From contig JAQCHP010000049.1 in the NCBI GenBank assembly GCA_027619595.1, forward strand, positions 1 through 32,255: a DNA stretch of 32,255 bases, given 5' to 3'. This DNA comes from Planctomycetota bacterium (GTDB lineage: Bacteria > Planctomycetota > Planctomycetia > Pirellulales > Pirellulaceae). Below, one piece after another: positions 8,537 to 28,437 of this stretch. Within the stretch, counting starts at the first letter, position 1; the number at the start of each line of letters is the position of its first letter. Under the pieces are notes generated by a model that was not told the origin of the DNA, did not search any database, and saw only the letters and a list, made by a program, of their open reading frames with translations. Position numbers and translations under genes: made by a program.

Positions 8537-9730
8537 TCAAGGCGAGCGTTGGATGATTTTGGTTCGCTCAGGAGCTGCTTGCAGGGAACGTTCGTACACC
8601 TGTCGAATGCGGCCGGTCATATGATGGTGGCAAAAGACTTGCTGGCACTTTAAACGACCGCGAGAGGCAAATTGATCGCGTTCCGTAGGTGAACCAGCCA
8701 AACGCAAAATTGCTGTGGTGAGTTCGGCGGTGTCGCCTGGTCGAACCAACAGGCCGGTCTCTTGATGACGAATCACTTCGCCCGCTCCATCTATGTCAAA
8801 ACTGACCGCCGTGCGTCCCGCCAATAAAGCCTGCGGAAGAACACGCGCCAGTCCTTCACGCAGGCTCGTGTGTACTACAAGATCCATGGCAGCCAGTGCT
8901 TTCGGGATTTCTGAGGGAGGCAGAAGTCCCGTAAAGCGAAAATGGTGGGTAAGCCCGGCTGCTGCGATTCGGCGTGCGATCGATTCGCGGAGGATTCCGT
9001 CCCCTACCAGAAGGAATCGCAATCGTGGATTTTGGCGAATCGCTTGATGAGCCGCGTCGATGAGAAATTCGTGTCCTTTGAGGTAGAAGAGCCGTGCGAT
9101 CTTGCCTACGACAAAGTCATCGGAAGTAAACTGCCAGCGAGCCCTCGCCGCCTCGCGATGACGATCTGCCTGTAAGAAAGGCTCGATTTCCATACCGCTA
9201 TAGATCGTCGTGAATTTTTCTCTCTCCGCAACTTGCGCATCGACCAGCAAGTTGGTCATGGCGTCCGCGACGCTAATCAATGCGTGACAACGTCGTGCCG
9301 CAAAGTGTTCACAATTCCGAAAAAAATACCGTGCTGCCTGGCTTTGGTAGGCGTGAAATGGCGCGCCATGCACCGTATGGATGATGGCGGGTACGTGTTT
9401 CGACCACGCTGCGGTACGTCCCAGGACGCCCCCCTTTGCGCTATGCGTATGGACGACGTCCGGTTGGAATTGCCCTATCACGCGGCGGAGGCTCCTATAG
9501 GCCTTCAGGTCATACCAAGGATGAAGATTGCGCCGCAAGTTGTGGTCGATAATTATCCGGACCCCGCGACGCCGAGCGTCCTCCTCCAGGTCCCCTTCCC
9601 GCCCAGGACTCGGGCCACTAATCAATAACACTTCATCGCCAAAGTCCTTTTGCAAGTCTTCGCAACATAAGACCGTGTTCTCTTGGGCTCCGCCAATGAT
9701 CAGCCGCGTGATGATGTGCGCTATTCGCAT
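8537..9730 (-). CDS. Family 4 (GT-B) glycosyltransferase
   Basis: The protein has 397 residues and starts at ATG with a canonical MRIAHIITRLIIGGAQENT N terminus. The N-terminal acceptor domain has PDVVHTHSAKGGVLGR and IIHTVHGAPFH. The C-terminal donor domain has VGKIARLFYLKGH, RFLLVGDG and SLREGLARVLPQALLAG. Such enzymes transfer sugars from nucleotide donors, usually in glycan or glycolipid synthesis at the cytoplasmic membrane face. The usual E-x7-E pair reads E292 with Gln at 300, so the second Glu is replaced. It is first in a leftward run with the kinase and accA. No neighbouring polysaccharide genes indicate the substrate. Confidence 0.9.
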   Translation of the reverse strand: MRIAHIITRLIIGGAQENTVLCCEDLQKDFGDEVLLISGPSPGREGDLEEDARRRGVRIIIDHNLRRNLHPWYDLKAYRSLRRVIGQFQPDVVHTHSAKGGVLGRTAAWSKHVPAIIHTVHGAPFHAYQSQAARYFFRNCEHFAARRCHALISVADAMTNLLVDAQVAEREKFTTIYSGMEIEPFLQADRHREAARARWQFTSDDFVVGKIARLFYLKGHEFLIDAAHQAIRQNPRLRFLLVGDGILRESIARRIAAAGLTHHFRFTGLLPPSEIPKALAAMDLVVHTSLREGLARVLPQALLAGRTAVSFDIDGAGEVIRHQETGLLVRPGDTAELTTAILRLAGSPTERDQFASRGRLKCQQVFCHHHMTGRIRQVYERSLQAAPERTKIIQRSP

Positions 9731-9837: not shown

Positions 9838-9897
9838 TTATTTTAAAAATATGCCGATATGTAAAATAAGGGATGGAATTCGGGCTGGTTATTTTAC
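9838..9897. promoter_or_regulatory. AT-rich Fic leader with three TTATTTTA boxes (candidate operator)
   Basis: The octamer TTATTTTA occurs at 9838-9845, inverted at 9862-9869 and direct again at 9889-9896. The second and third extend to a perfect 9-bp inverted pair, GTAAAATAA (9861-9869) and TTATTTTAC (9889-9897), centred about 55 bases upstream of the Fic start codon. The surroundings are otherwise GC-rich, so the boxes stand out. An operator for autoregulation is inferred, not shown. Confidence 0.5.
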
Positions 9898-9933: not shown

Positions 9934-11076
9934 ATGCGGTCGGGCACATTTGTAAAACAAAAGCATGGATATCGGGCGTTTATACCAGCCAGCCTCCCAC
10001 CCGACCCTCCTATTGTAATGGATGGGGAGCTTGTGCGGCTGTTATCGGCGGCGGATCGGGCGCTCGGACGGCTGGACGGGGTGGCCACGGTTCTGCCCAA
10101 CCCGGAACTCTTTGTTGCGATGTACGTTCGGCAGGAAGCTGTTCTGAGTTCTCAAATTGAAGGGACGCAAAGTACCCTCGAGGACGTCCTGGAATTTGAA
10201 GTGGATGGCGCTGCGGGGACCACGGCACCTCAAGATGTGGAAGAGGTCGTCAACTATGTGCGGGCGATGCAGTACGGACTCCGTCGCATGGAGGAACTCC
10301 CCCTTTCCCTGCGTTTGATTCAGGAAATTCACGGGCAACTCCTGCAAGGTGTGCGAGGAGCCGAACGGACTCCAGGCGAGTTTCGTCGCAGCCAGAATTG
10401 GATTGGGCCGACCGGCAGTACACTCGAGACTGCCAGTTTTGTACCCCCGCCCGTCCATGAAATGCACAGTGCCTTGGGGAACTTCGAGAAATTCTTGCAC
10501 GATGAAGAGAGTGTGCCGGTCTTGCTGCAATGTGGGCTGGCACATGCCCAGTTCGAAACAATCCATCCGTTCCTTGACGGTAATGGACGCGTGGGACGAC
10601 TTCTGATCACCTTGCTACTGTGTCAACGTGGAATCTTGCACCGCCCCCTGCTCTACTTAAGCCTATTCCTGAAATCAAACCGGTCAGAATACTATGATCG
10701 TCTGATGGCAATTCGACTTCACGGACATTGGGAAGGCTGGCTAAAGTTCTTTCTGCGCGGCGTGTTTGATGTCAGCCAATCTGCAACAAATACCGCACAG
10801 GCCATACTCCATATGCGTGAACAGCATCGTCAGGCCATTGCCGAAAAACTTGGCACGCGAGCTGCCTACGGACTCAAGTTACTAGATATTCTTTTCGAAC
10901 AGCCAATCCTCTCCGTACAAGCGGTTGAGGAGCGGCTGGAATGTGCTTACGTTACGGCCAACAAGATCATTGACCAACTGGTCGAACTCAACGTATTGCG
11001 TGAGTTTACTGGCGGGCAGCGAAACCGACGCTATCGCTACGAACCCTACGTGGCCCTCTTCGAAGGGATCCGTTAA
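9934..11076 (+). CDS. Fic family protein (putative AMPylase) with C-terminal winged helix
   Basis: The protein has 380 residues from ATG 9934, with a G7 run five bases upstream; a TTG at 9916 is less likely. The catalytic Fic motif is intact: HPFLDGNGRVGR at 211-222. The inhibitory motif S-x-x-x-E-G is present at 72-77 on the N-terminal side (class II arrangement), so the enzyme is probably self-restrained. The N-terminal part matches the Fic_N type (AFIPASLPPDPP, then a helix with LG-LDG). The C-terminal 80 residues (LKLLDILFEQPILSVQAVEERL, then YVTANKIIDQLVELNVLRE) form a winged helix. Fic enzymes usually transfer AMP to target proteins. Solitary gene, no toxin-antitoxin partner. The winged helix and leader boxes suggest self-regulation. 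Confidence 0.92.
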   Translation: MRSGTFVKQKHGYRAFIPASLPPDPPIVMDGELVRLLSAADRALGRLDGVATVLPNPELFVAMYVRQEAVLSSQIEGTQSTLEDVLEFEVDGAAGTTAPQDVEEVVNYVRAMQYGLRRMEELPLSLRLIQEIHGQLLQGVRGAERTPGEFRRSQNWIGPTGSTLETASFVPPPVHEMHSALGNFEKFLHDEESVPVLLQCGLAHAQFETIHPFLDGNGRVGRLLITLLLCQRGILHRPLLYLSLFLKSNRSEYYDRLMAIRLHGHWEGWLKFFLRGVFDVSQSATNTAQAILHMREQHRQAIAEKLGTRAAYGLKLLDILFEQPILSVQAVEERLECAYVTANKIIDQLVELNVLREFTGGQRNRRYRYEPYVALFEGIR

Positions 11077-11117
11077 GGCCGACGGCGTAAGGCTGATATC
11101 ACTGGCGCTTGCTATTA

Positions 11118-22147: not shown

Positions 22148-23824
22148 TCAGCAGGCTCCCCTGATCGAGTACGAGCGCACTCGTATTCGATTAGTCGCGG
22201 CCACGGTGTTGACCGTCGCCCCAGTCCCCACGAACACGCTCTTGGCGGCCGTATTGGCGTGCAGATTGAGCGTTCCTGCGGAGTCTGCCGCGACGGTGTC
22301 GGCCACACTGTCGTTGGCGTCCAACGTGAACGTGCCACGGCTCACACCCAGGCTGCCGGTTGCTACGATCGCACCATCGTTGATAATGTCGCCCGCATGG
22401 GTGAATCGGCCAATGTAGATATTACGGGCCGTGATATTGCGGCCATTGGCATTGATCGTAGCTACGCTTGTGCCGTTACCACGGATGTCGATATCTTCAG
22501 TGAGCGTTAGGTTGGCCCCAAGATTGAGCAGACTCCCTTCATCCAATACGAGCGCACCGGTACTCAGATTGGTCGCGGCAACTGTATTGATTCTTGCACC
22601 GCTGTGCACGTTGCCGTTCTTGGCGGCGGTGTTTGCGTGCAAGTTAAGCGTTCCTGCGGAGTCTGCCGCGACGGTGTCGGCCACACTGTCGTTGGCGTCC
22701 AACGTGAACGTGCCACGGCTCACGCCCAGGCTGCCGGTTGCCACGATCGCACCATCGTTGATAATGTCGCCTGCATTGTTGAATCGGCCGATGTAGATAT
22801 TACGGGCCGTGATGTTGTGATCATTGGCATTGATCGTGGCTACGTTTGCGCCGGTACCACGGATATCGATATCTTCAGTGAGCGTTAGGTTGGCCCCAAG
22901 ATTGAGCAGACTCCCTTGATCGAGTACGAGCGCACTGGTATTCAGATTGGTCGCGGCAACTGTATTGATTCTTACACCGCTGTGCACATTGCCGTTTTTG
23001 GCGGCGGTGTTTGCGTGCAAGTTAAGAGTTCCTGCGGAATCTGCCGCGACGGTGTCGGCCACGCTGTCGTTGGCGTCCAACGTGAACGTGCCACGGCTCA
23101 CGCCCAGGCTGCCGGTTGCCACGATCGCACCATCGTTGATAATGTCGCCTGCATTGTTGAATCGGCCGATGTAGATATTACGGGCCGTAATGTTGCGGCC
23201 ATTGGCATTGATCGTGGCTACCGCTGCCGCAGTACCCCGAATATCAATTTCACCTGCCACGGAGAAGTCGGCACCTAGGCTCAAGAGGCTCGCCGCATCA
23301 ACGACGGCCGCGGACGAAGTCACGTTTCCGATCGCTGCGGTATTTACTTGCGCTCCCACACGAATAGACAAGTTGGCGGTTACATCGTTGGCGCTAAGGC
23401 TTAATGCGTTGGCGTTATGAACAGACAAATTTACGGTCGTGAATCGGCCTCCGTTGTGAAGGACGTTGCCAGTGCCGCCAAAGGGACTGATCAAGATGCT
23501 GTTGGCGGTTAAGTTAAATCCGGCAAGGTTGAAGGTTCCGGTGTTGCCGGCAGAATTTCCGAGTCGCAAATCGTTCACTGTTTGATTTGCACCTAAGGAG
23601 ATCGTAGCGACGGCCGCTGAACCCACAGGAGAGTTGCTGCCGATAAACGCATCGTCAAGTGTCCCCGGCGGACCGCCCGCTGGAGTCCAGTTCGCAGCGA
23701 CTCCCCACAGGCCATTTGCTACAGCTCCAAACTGAGCTGCCGTGGCTTGCGTCGAACCGATCGCCACAACGGCCACAGTCGCAATGAAGAATCGGCGTAC
23801 GGAAAAGTTTTGTTGCGAAATCAT
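22148..23824 (-). CDS. N-terminal part of repeat surface protein (frameshifted)
   Basis: The frame starts at ATG 23824, with GGAG seven bases upstream, and reads to a TGA at 22148. A signal peptide is clear (RRFFIATVAVVAIGSTQATAAQ). The body consists of beta-helix-like repeats rich in Asn, Ala and Thr. The 126-residue unit occurs almost unchanged three times: TINANGRNITARNIYIGRF, DGAIVATGSLGVSRGTF, NDSVADTVAADSAGTL. It resembles autotransporter-type passenger repeats of PEP-CTERM proteins. The last 13 residues, after VAATN, are out of frame: by comparison with the other copies one base is missing between 22188 and 22189. Without it the gene would run on to 21357 as one protein of about 822 residues. 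Confidence 0.8.
   Translation of the reverse strand: MISQQNFSVRRFFIATVAVVAIGSTQATAAQFGAVANGLWGVAANWTPAGGPPGTLDDAFIGSNSPVGSAAVATISLGANQTVNDLRLGNSAGNTGTFNLAGFNLTANSILISPFGGTGNVLHNGGRFTTVNLSVHNANALSLSANDVTANLSIRVGAQVNTAAIGNVTSSAAVVDAASLLSLGADFSVAGEIDIRGTAAAVATINANGRNITARNIYIGRFNNAGDIINDGAIVATGSLGVSRGTFTLDANDSVADTVAADSAGTLNLHANTAAKNGNVHSGVRINTVAATNLNTSALVLDQGSLLNLGANLTLTEDIDIRGTGANVATINANDHNITARNIYIGRFNNAGDIINDGAIVATGSLGVSRGTFTLDANDSVADTVAADSAGTLNLHANTAAKNGNVHSGARINTVAATNLSTGALVLDEGSLLNLGANLTLTEDIDIRGNGTSVATINANGRNITARNIYIGRFTHAGDIINDGAIVATGSLGVSRGTFTLDANDSVADTVAADSAGTLNLHANTAAKSVFVGTGATVNTVAATNRIRVRSYSIRGAC
22240..23235. repeat. 378-bp in-frame tandem repeats in the surface-protein gene
   Basis: ATTACGGGCC occurs at 22421, 22799 and 23177, exactly 378 bases apart each time, and the intervening sequence is nearly identical. 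378 bases is 126 codons, so the reading frame is kept. Diverged copies flank the array on both sides. The near identity indicates recent duplication or gene conversion. Confidence 0.92.
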
Positions 23825-25988: not shown

Positions 25989-26788
25989 AGCTGGTCCAGT
26001 TATTTTCATAATCTCGTGTGGGACACCAGCAATAATACGCACGATCACGGTAGGTGACACGTACAAGCATCCGAACCTGCGAAGTATTGCTGCCATTTGT
26101 CAAATTACCGGACCTATTGTTGCCCAAAACGGCCTATATCCACAGTTTACGACGGTTCTCCGAAATCCATGTTGTCCGGAACGGAGCGGATGTCAGGGTA
26201 TCTGGATCAGAAGGCCTTCCAAACCTCTTCAGAAGGTGGCTTCGTCAACTAGGTCGGTTCACTAGCGACTGCGAGTCCGTCTGGGGCCGGACTAGGTGCC
26301 CCAAAGGCAATCGCTTCGGCCGCGTGAACCAGCGAGCGCGTGAACTAGTGAGTCGAGTGCCTTTGCGAATGCGAACACTTGACGACCCGTCCCGCAACCG
26401 GCATCGACGATGACTCCGAATTGCTACTTCCGAAACAGACGCTGGACATGCCGGGTGTGCGCGTCGTCGCCGGGCCCAAGCTTTTCCATAGAAAAAGACA
26501 CGGGAAAAAGACACGGACAGTCAGGGAAAAAGACGCGGACAGTCAGAAGAAGCTGGGGACAGTCAGTTTTTGGGTTTGGGACAGTCGATCTTTGGATTTC
26601 CTTGGAGGAATGGGATGGCTGCGGCGTTTGTGGTGGCTGGCTCGGCGGTCGCCGGAGGGCTATTCGGGAGAAATGCGTCGTCAGACGGCCGAATTCATTG
26701 AAATGACGGCGAGAAATGGTGCGTCATGGCGCAACGGGAGCGCAGAAGGTGGGGCGGTGTTCAAAAAATCAGAGACTAAGACTGATCG
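25989..26788. other. Gene-poor region with possible methyltransferase relic and repeat array
   Basis: No intact gene is seen in these 800 bases. On the minus strand at 26292-26423, an open stretch between stops encodes FGVIVDAGCGTGRQVFAFA, which looks like motif I of a class I SAM methyltransferase without the rest of the fold. From about 26490 to 26590 a GGACAGTC array lies next to the transposase. The frames on the plus strand (such as 26054-26413) resemble nothing I know and are not called. Confidence 0.4.
26488..26588. repeat. GGACAGTC tandem array at the 3' side of transposase copy 2
   Basis: GGACAGTC occurs at 26515-26522, 26537-26544, 26557-26564 and 26579-26586, spaced 22, 20 and 22 bases. 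The first two sit in a nearly repeated unit, GGGAAAAAGACRCGGACAGT. The same motif lies downstream of copy 1 on the opposite strand, and the last copy here forms one arm of the inverted repeat bounding the element. Confidence 0.85.
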
Positions 26789-28046
26789 CTAAACCGATAG
26801 TTCGGGTGACTTTACTTTGGGCTCCACGAAGCGAGCACGGCAAGCGCGAATTCCTTTTAGGTATTTCTGGCGCAGGCGACGGGCGGTCAATTCCAGCTGA
26901 CTTGGCATCGCCACGAAGTCGTAGAATAGCTCCGCATAGCGATCGATGGTGTCAATCCAGAATTTGGGATCGATCCCCAGGCTCAGCAGCAACTCCTCGA
27001 TCCGCTGCGGGACGATTACCTCGTATTTCGCTCCATCACTGCCGTCGTAGCGTGCACGGATGTGGCTCGCCGTCCAGAGTGTAATGTCCCGATAGTCGGA
27101 CCAATGCAACGGGGACATCCCCTTTTCGGAACAACGGGGGGATGGATACTCGTTCGCCTGTGCCACCAGGCACGTCACACCATCCTGGCCTTCTGTCATC
27201 TGCGCAACTTGGTCGTAGGCGACAGACCGCTCATCAAGGAACATCGGCGCCAGCCAGTCGGCTTCGCCCCGCTCTCGCCGAGAGTACGAAGAAAAGGGAT
27301 GCCCCTCCACCGTGTCACAGAGTCCGCCTCGGAAAGCATTAAGAGCAATATACACGCTGCAAGCCAGCATACATCCGTCACCGTCGATCCGCTTACAGCG
27401 GAACCGTTCCGCGACAAAATGTCCCTTCTTTTCGTCCCGACGATTGAATTCTTTAGCGATCGGCTCGAGGAGACACTTTTGGAAGTGAGACAGGCTACTT
27501 AGCTCGCGACGTGCCTTCTTGATCAAGTCTTTATCGGCCACGGCGCGGTCGAGGTCCTCTTCAGAGAGGACATGGTTCTTGCTTTCCCTGGCGGCAATAT
27601 CGGTCGGATGGAGTCGCAACCACCGGCGCGCCACCTCACGGTCCGACCAAGCTGATACAACATCGGGTCGATTTCTCAGCAGCGTATGGATGTGATTCGA
27701 TAGGAGAGAAAAATCGAGCACATCGACGGCGCACAGCGAAGCGAGCAATTGCAGGCGAATTTCACAGAAATCCCATCTCCCCACATTTTCCGCTTGCGAT
27801 TTTTCGTCCGGCCCGATCAAGAAGAGCTGTCGGACACAACGTGAAATGCAGTGATAGATCCCCGGATTGTATGGGTCGAACGTGTCCTTGCGTGGCCTTG
27901 CCATGGGATTTTCCTTTCGTCGTTGCTCGCCGTGAATCGGCGATTGGTTGCGACCGGAGGTGCATTGGACAACCAACGCGATGAAATACCTCCAGTGAGG
28001 GGCAATCGGCCGATACCTGACTAGTCCGATCGACTTCGACTGTCCC
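26578..28046. mobile_element. Putative RAYT/IS200-like element bounded by an 11-bp inverted repeat
   Basis: GGGACAGTCGA at 26578-26588 and its exact reverse complement TCGACTGTCCC at 28036-28046 enclose the transposase gene. Classical IS200/RAYT elements do not have terminal inverted repeats, so these arms may be REP-type palindromic sites recognised by the enzyme and not transposon ends. No target-site duplication was looked for successfully. Confidence 0.55.
26789..27904 (-). CDS. REP-associated (Y1/IS200-like) transposase, full length
   Basis: The protein has 371 residues from ATG 27902-27904, with AAAGGA eight bases upstream; the longer frame to 28048 runs into the flanking repeat and is rejected. 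The N terminus MARPRKDTFDPYNPGIYHCISR is typical for Y1 transposases. The metal-binding HUH motif is H71-I-H73 in LLSNHIHTLLRNRP. The candidate catalytic tyrosine is Y185 in SVYIALNAFRGGL, matching the YxxLNPxRAG segment of RAYTs. The protein is about twice as long as IS200 transposase because of a helical insert (about 100-165) and a C-terminal extension shared with the copy at 1-513. It would nick single-stranded DNA through a 5'-phosphotyrosine. The frame is intact. Confidence 0.85.
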   Translation of the reverse strand: MARPRKDTFDPYNPGIYHCISRCVRQLFLIGPDEKSQAENVGRWDFCEIRLQLLASLCAVDVLDFSLLSNHIHTLLRNRPDVVSAWSDREVARRWLRLHPTDIAARESKNHVLSEEDLDRAVADKDLIKKARRELSSLSHFQKCLLEPIAKEFNRRDEKKGHFVAERFRCKRIDGDGCMLACSVYIALNAFRGGLCDTVEGHPFSSYSRRERGEADWLAPMFLDERSVAYDQVAQMTEGQDGVTCLVAQANEYPSPRCSEKGMSPLHWSDYRDITLWTASHIRARYDGSDGAKYEVIVPQRIEELLLSLGIDPKFWIDTIDRYAELFYDFVAMPSQLELTARRLRQKYLKGIRACRARFVEPKVKSPELSV

Positions 28047-28437
28047 ACAACACACCGAGACGCATTTCTGGGCGAAAAGCGAACAAGGAATCTAGGAAAA
28101 TATCGAGAGTTTTTGTCGACGGAGTTTGCTGGAGTGGGTTGGTGTACGAGGAGAAGTCGGCGTCAGAAGCCGAGGAGAGTCGATACACGCCCGAAACGTG
28201 GATCCGCTGAATGTGATTTCACGGGCGACGTATATTTTTAGGAATAGTCGATAAGAGGCTGGCAAGACGCCGGACGAGCACTGTCAGACGATAGGATGGT
28301 TTTCGTTCGACGACCATATTCACGGCAGGACGAACCTGTAGTCCTACCGCTCGCTGAGGTCTTGGGAGCTTGTTTGCCGGCTCGACCGAAACCGGGTGCC
28401 AGCGCAAAGCGGCTGATGGGAGATGATGCGCGTTCGT
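27905..28437. other. Upstream flank of transposase copy 2 and gene-free spacer
   Basis: This spacer holds the leader of the transposase and the right arm of its inverted repeat (28036-28046). From 28047 to 28437 no gene, terminator or regulatory site could be supported; the short minus-strand frames there show no recognisable sequence. Confidence 0.45.

Follow-up and report, generated by a model that had tools for sequence, protein, structure and literature searches.

The fic Locus and Its Upstream Boxes

The window, i.e., the whole stretch of DNA analysed here, comprises 32,255 nucleotides of a planctomycete genome of the family Pirellulaceae (GenBank assembly GCA_027619595.1, contig JAQCHP010000049.1). 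On its forward strand lies a fic gene (9934–11076) encoding a SoFic-like, class II protein of 380 amino acids with Fic_N and Fic domains and a C-terminal winged helix. A gap of 203 bp separates the ATG of fic at 9934 from a divergent glycosyltransferase gene starting at 9730, and this gap contains the three copies of an AT-rich box that a previous sequence-only reading of the DNA had placed ahead of the Fic gene. The box TTATTTTA is found on the forward strand at 9838–9845 (box 1) and 9889–9896 (box 3), and on the reverse strand at 9862–9869 (box 2), where the forward strand reads TAAAATAA. Boxes 1 and 2 make up an 8-bp inverted pair with 16 bp between the arms (TTATTTTA-16 bp-TAAAATAA, 9838–9869, the N16 dyad). 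The perfect 9-bp inverted pair described in the same reading is also there, being formed by GTAAAATAA (9861–9869) and TTATTTTAC (9889–9897) with 19 bp between the arms. The most conserved dyad is, however, that of boxes 1 and 2 (N16) and not that of boxes 2 and 3 (N19), box 3 being a recurrent additional half-site in the leaders of homologues. A sigma-70-type promoter was looked for here and none was found.

In the window TTATTTTA occurs at these three sites only, the chance expectation from a composition-matched simulation being 0.43 per window. Three copies of some 8-mer inside 60 bp were obtained in 6 of 60 windows simulated in this way, so the cluster on its own is just mildly unusual, and the boxes are judged to be real by the comparison with homologue leaders rather than by the statistics of the cluster.

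Several other features of the window may be mentioned. Two open reading frames near the contig ends, 97–513 (forward strand) and 26789–28048 (reverse strand), have visibly similar translations, the first being much shorter. No Pfam match was obtained for either of them; by resemblance they may possibly encode a REP-associated transposase. Tandem repeats of 13 and 22 bp (GAAAAAGACACGG and ..GACAGTCA) are found at 26491–26599, approximately 190 bp from the second of these frames, and a repeat containing TGACTGTCCC at 777–814. In addition, a tandem array with a unit of 378 bp (2.6 copies, 94% matches) occupies 22240–23221 within a long repetitive open reading frame.

Domain Content of the Fic Protein

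The Fic protein matches the Pfam families Fic_N (107 bits) and Fic (69 bits). It carries the Fic motif HPFLDGNGRVGR at residues 211–222 (10564–10599), which together with the two domains agrees with the HPFxDGNGRxGR signature of the SoFic family. Residues 72–77 (10147–10164) read SSQIEG and correspond to the class II inhibitory motif (S/T)xxxE(G/N). The inhibitory motif is present in all 98 aligned homologue proteins and the Fic motif in 97 of the 98, L070 being the one without it. The PADLOC SoFic profile, for which no cut-off is stated, matches residues 12–376 with 419 bits (4.4e-126). The NCBIfam SoFic equivalog NF046030 is reached with 185.3 bits against a curated cut-off of 550, and the protein is thus not a close SoFic orthologue. 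The SoFic-like C-terminal domain PF21248 scores 23.4 bits with a cut-off of 27, while the fold agrees with that of 3ZCN and 3EQX.

In an AlphaFold2 model built from 47 sequences (mean pLDDT 91.7) the helices 307–322, 328–335 and 339–351 form a winged helix, the domain spanning residues 307–368 (10852–11037). The C-terminal HTH or winged helix that characterises Fic-HTH proteins of the CccR type is present in the model, and the earlier description of a self-inhibited Fic protein with a C-terminal winged helix agrees with both motifs and the predicted fold. The predicted recognition helix is made of residues 339–351 (10948–10986), and it includes Val340 (codon 10951–10953), the helix position with the strongest association to the inner triplet of the boxes (see below). 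Foldseek places the SoFic structure 3zcn first with a TM score of about 0.8, and CbFic2 (8cil, 0.61) and CccR (7xux, 0.59) lower. Between the stop codon of fic and the end of the convergent gene there are 41 bp (11077–11117). This is too short for a gene of 47 amino acids, and a small downstream antitoxin gene of the Sofic-AS1 type has no room without overlap.

Conservation of the Dyad in Homologue Leaders

The discovery set consisted of 101 loci, including the best 80 of at least 581 confirmed relatives, and yielded 98 usable proteins. Rows with broken or short frames (L047, L059, L076), without a leader (L021) or with partial genes (L011, L014) were not used, and L002, L005 and L008 were replaced by L105, L106 and L114, which represent the same loci. 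The validation set of 79 leaders, 23 from the phylum of the window and 56 viral, was obtained later, after 29 of 108 loci had been dropped because of their shortness or an identity of 90% or more to another row. The dyad was sought in the 130 bp before fic and in the 130 bp behind it. Spacing was counted without any model, as the number of leaders with TTATT followed by AATAA at each gap from 0 to 44; the N16 dyad corresponds to a gap of 22 bp between these outer bases.

Exact TTATT and AATAA at 22 bp were found in 12 of the 98 discovery leaders (next best gap 2) and in 14 of the 79 validation leaders (next best gap 3). Thus, the comparison of leaders that had been proposed as a check on the boxes supports them in both sets. 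When one mismatch was allowed, the same gap was found in 22/98 discovery leaders, with a median of 3 over the gaps, and in 22/79 validation leaders. Downstream of the stop codons there were no exact matches at this gap in either set, and 2/98 and 2/79 with one mismatch. A frozen dyad model (p ≤ 0.01) detected the dyad in 21 of the 79 new leaders, two of which (L311 and L329) belong to viral contigs already seen before validation, vs. none of 77 downstream stretches.

In the discovery set the model dyad is present in 21 leaders under nine different phylum-level labels (Acidobacteriota, Melainabacteria, Poribacteria, Thermodesulfobacteriota, Bacteroidota, Pseudomonadota, Planctomycetota, Actinomycetota and Myxococcota), and since many of these genomes are metagenome bins, single labels may be wrong. 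Five of the 21 are the window and genomes of its order or family, and two are labelled only as bacteria. Judged by this conservation, the repeated boxes are a real and widely conserved DNA control site.

The spacing of 22 bp is, with up to one mismatch, absent from 133 of the 177 leaders, and another large clade has a different dyad, ATATTAAAGGC-n-GCCTTTAATAT. Six plasmid homologues were also examined. In two of them the leader holds a perfect 8-bp inverted repeat, and the N16 dyad is absent among the repeats of this kind. The Citrobacter plasmid homologue, for which blastn against E. coli genomes gave no match, has TTATTAAA-N6-TTTAATAA, ten bases shorter than N16. Plasmids pAQ6 of Picosynechococcus PCC 7002 and pSYSX of Synechocystis PCC 6803 each carry a homologue preceded by boxes of a different kind. 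The leaders of three archaeal homologues (L079, L089, L093) contain several copies of TTAACTTAGA-like boxes, which differ from those of the TTATT type. A second palindrome nearer to the gene was noticed in the close relatives L004 and L106, e.g., TGTTTCAGGCGCCTGAAACA in L106.

Box 3 lies at +51 from the left arm of the dyad. Four extra offsets from the left arm had been noticed post hoc and were then tried on 20 new leaders, the background being 0.087 for each window of 3 bp. The forward-strand offset of +51 came first (7 exact, 10 within 1 bp), as did −27 for the inverted form (7 exact, 9 within 1 bp). Among the discovery leaders +51 tied for first place with −41, which was weak in the new leaders (4 of 20), and +65 was not replicated (2/20). 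The offset +41, first noticed in two viral leaders, was found in 8/20.

Arm Symmetry and the Recognition Helix

The inner triplets of the dyad were compared in the 44 of the 177 leaders that have the N22 spacing with at most one mismatch, the outer bases being fixed by the search itself. The triplets vary on both arms together. When the more symmetric site was taken wherever there were several candidates (five leaders had more than one), 110 of the 132 inner bases were dyad-symmetric, with a mean of 68 and a maximum of 88 when the right arms were dealt out among the leaders. Sites picked regardless of symmetry gave 108/132 (null maximum 85), and the 26 leaders with exact outer bases 72/78 (null maximum 58). 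The fully symmetric triplets are TTA (11), TCA (8), AAA (5), TTG (1), TGC (1) and GCA (1).

Similarity of the triplets tracks residue 340 of the recognition helix (r = 0.336, p = 0.0005, catalytic identity controlled; 39 leaders, 13 positions), in a test from which 5 of the 44 rows, whose arms share at most one inner base, were left out (L041, L070, L073, L244, L347), exceptions to the residue-340 pattern being among them. The second-best of the 13 positions is residue 344 (r = 0.171, p = 0.002). When all 44 leaders are counted, N340 goes with TCA-type triplets in 7/8 cases, and V340, which is the residue in the window, with TTA on both arms in 8/15. P340 goes with AA-containing triplets on both arms in 9/12, while the remaining three leaders belong to a different operator type. 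The six A340 proteins are mixed (TTA, TCA, ATA), and the two with G340 have TCA on one or both arms.

For the helix as a whole the correlation with the triplet is r = 0.099 (p = 0.025) with catalytic identity controlled, and it is not significant (r = 0.063, p = 0.09) when the rest of the winged helix is controlled too, the rest of the domain itself giving r = 0.162 (p = 0.011). In a catalytic-domain tree of 41 rows with uneven branch support, P340 together with AAA is found in two clades that lie apart, and both proteins with G340 fall among relatives that have V340; L061, L072 and L073, in which the N22 match falls in leaders of the AAN type, were left out of the tree. Leader similarity measured by 7-mers also tracks helix identity (r = 0.124, p = 0.0005; 94 leaders, catalytic domain and rest of the winged helix controlled), vs. 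r = 0.006 (p = 0.34) for the downstream stretches, and this correlation is nearly gone for pairs below 62% catalytic identity (r = 0.023). The inner triplets tend to change along with the recognition helix, and the comparison suggests that residue 340 reads them. The association is moderate, and residue 340 does not appear to decide the triplet alone.

A rule assigning leaders to helix classes (VTA, AAN, xNA, PTA) was also considered as a full code and was rejected, as it failed on new leaders (AAN 2/10, VTA 1/2). In the discovery set it had placed 21/25 and 22/26 leaders in their own class and 1/26 and 0/25 across classes, in a test that was no clean hold-out because the model had seen all members and the spacing had been fixed from all of them; the classes, moreover, had been defined after the leaders had been looked at. 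The N16 dyad itself held in validation across many helix types.

Sites Elsewhere and Neighboring Genes

The genome of the window is a 5.18 Mb draft, 96% complete. In it, TTATTTTA-N14..20-TAAAATAA occurs once, at fic, and this dyad is the only N16 site with at most two mismatches. When three mismatches are allowed there is one further site, the reversed control pattern giving five. Among 392 genomes of the same phylum the exact N16 dyad is present in eight and the reversed control pattern in four. The window is one of the eight. In L102 the dyad lies directly before a fic gene of 42% identity, in L099 (1501–1532) it follows the stop codon of a fic gene (40% identity) at a distance of approximately 40 bp, and in the remaining five no fic was found inside the 3-kb locus. 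In viral contigs fic directly follows the dyad in 2 of 80 loci, among the matches listed.

Neighboring genes were grouped by single-linkage clustering, some of the flanks being shorter than 3 kb. The most widespread family was found at 14 of 79 loci, which makes a general linked regulator unlikely. A second family occurs at 9/79 loci, and L035, L050, L067, L071 and L078 have both. These shared families are probably type I restriction-modification genes; the homologue on pSYSX adjoins an annotated restriction subunit S.

A Putative Operator of the fic Gene

We consider it likely that the Fic protein itself binds the boxes as half-sites of an operator, most likely for negative feedback on fic. 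The sequence-only reading had suggested that the protein represses its own gene through these sites. The autoregulatory part of this suggestion stands on the comparison of leaders and on the analogy with CccR, and direct autoregulation of fic may be called well supported; repression is the probable sign of it. The coupling of expression to the AMPylation state, put forward in the same reading, is not supported by any of the results. The support comes from the fixed spacing, the recurrence before fic under nine phylum-level labels and the dyad-symmetric changes, as well as from the helix-residue association, the single site in the genome, the lack of a general neighbor family and the CccR precedent. 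Taken together, it is very probable that Fic binds its own operator.

In the geometry that we infer, a Fic homodimer would set its two C-terminal winged helices on TTATTTTA-N16-TAAAATAA, and the third half-site, 27 bp further on, would probably be a second and weaker contact, the dimer and this half-site covering approximately 60 bp upstream of fic. Binding upstream of the start codon would most likely lower the transcription of fic. Fic proteins built in this way are defence enzymes with a potential for toxicity, and the purpose of the feedback, as we infer it, would be to keep a potentially toxic AMPylator scarce.

The same boxes could be read by some other regulator of the host. Other winged-helix repressors are generally known to read similar AT-rich dyads. 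Such a regulator would, however, have to explain why fic genes of unrelated genomes and viral contigs are repeatedly preceded by the dyad, although no neighbor family exceeds 14 of 79 loci (with some flanks below 3 kb), why the sole site in the genome is at fic and why the inner triplet varies with an amino acid in the recognition helix of Fic, and we find it unlikely. It is less probable still that the boxes serve mainly the divergent glycosyltransferase gene. They do lie between both genes, but homologues keep the dyad before fic without any general neighbor family (only the fic flanks, 130 bp each, were searched), and this target seems highly improbable. An equally slight chance is given to the boxes being plain promoter elements (a −10-like TAAAAT and an AT-rich upstream element) with no dedicated regulator. 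TAAAAT is similar to the −10 hexamer and the region is intergenic between divergent genes; on the other hand, no sigma-70-like site was found, a single site in 5.18 Mb means that the boxes are no general promoter, and the inverted symmetry, the change of the inner triplet and the third box would be left unexplained.

The arms might also form an RNA hairpin in the 5′ leader, acting as an attenuator or in translation control. Symmetric base changes would preserve an RNA stem too, and some of the seven relatives' dyads that were folded do so better than shuffled sequences (z down to −4.4). The dyad of the window, however, is unremarkable (z −0.68) and stays unpaired in the optimal structure of the 99-nt leader (z +0.48), so for this dyad a hairpin is unlikely. 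Departures from pairing are G-U in 20 cases vs. mismatches in 21, the fixed spacing and recurrent outer bases are as for DNA half-sites, and a third half-site at a fixed offset is not accounted for by a stem; as a general explanation of the arms we regard the hairpin as very improbable.

To return to an operator bound by Fic, a broader proposal can be made, though tentatively and with more doubt than confidence. The SoFic-type family might consist of one-component autoregulators, each gene carrying its own operator across phyla and viral contigs, in which TTATT is fixed and the inner triplet varies, residue 340 largely setting the triplet (V: TTA, N: TCA, P: AAA). As ATP binding is reported to move the C-terminal domain (PMC12249575, from the part of the text available), occupancy of the operator could report the nucleotide state, and activation during infection would derepress the gene. 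A fixed operator across phyla, if true, would mean that the control of expression travels with the gene, and such control would help to explain how fic has entered so many genomes. It would also assign a definite function to the C-terminal domain of SoFic-like proteins and provide a DNA signature for finding and annotating their genes, and it would offer a hypothesis of specificity set by one residue (340).

Comparison With Known Systems

Among the matches listed, which included few subscription journals and preprints, CccR was the only autoregulated Fic-HTH protein found, and no operator for a SoFic-like Fic protein was found. In the available part of the SoFic structure paper nothing on DNA binding or a role in transcription was found (PMC3667792).

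A functional parallel is CccR of Yersinia pseudotuberculosis (PDB 7XUX), like the protein studied here a class II Fic with a C-terminal HTH and an inverted repeat in its own leader. According to the accessible portions of the report, autorepression was demonstrated by lacZ fusion, EMSA and footprinting on the inverted repeat of its own promoter, and requires dimerisation (PMC9755527). In a dimerisation mutant the operator was bound 148-fold more weakly, whereas toxicity and AMPylation were affected marginally, and the authors regard the two activities as independent (PMC9755527). The CccR operator is AGATAATCAT-N26-ATGATAATCT, whereas the window has TTATTTTA with N16 and N19. The two proteins are distant (phmmer E 1.2e-13 over residues 64–277; Foldseek TM 0.59), and CccR is described as a type VI secreted effector (PMC9755527).

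CbFic2 of Coxiella burnetii (PDB 8CIL) is likewise a class II Fic protein, and its two-stranded wHTH is reported to bind DNA and to dimerise there. The available part of the paper describes no operator; the experiments employed random DNA, the binding of which stimulates the (de)AMPylation of histone H3 (PMC10628234).

By profile and fold the protein resembles the anti-phage AMPylators SoFic/Sofic (PDB 3EQX, 3ZCN), with the PADLOC score of 419 bits, a TM score of about 0.8 and a shared inhibitory motif. Sofic-AS1 has a small downstream antitoxin gene, for which the 41 bp behind the fic gene of the window leave no room without overlap. In the text available, the C-terminal domain of E. coli Sofic is treated as a regulator of toxicity, with no mention of transcription, of an HTH or helix-turn-helix, or of a winged fold (PMC12249575). 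E. coli Sofic is reported to be dimeric and to move its C-terminal domain upon ATP binding (PMC12249575), and by analogy with this movement it is conceivable that binding of the operator is coupled to the state of the enzyme.
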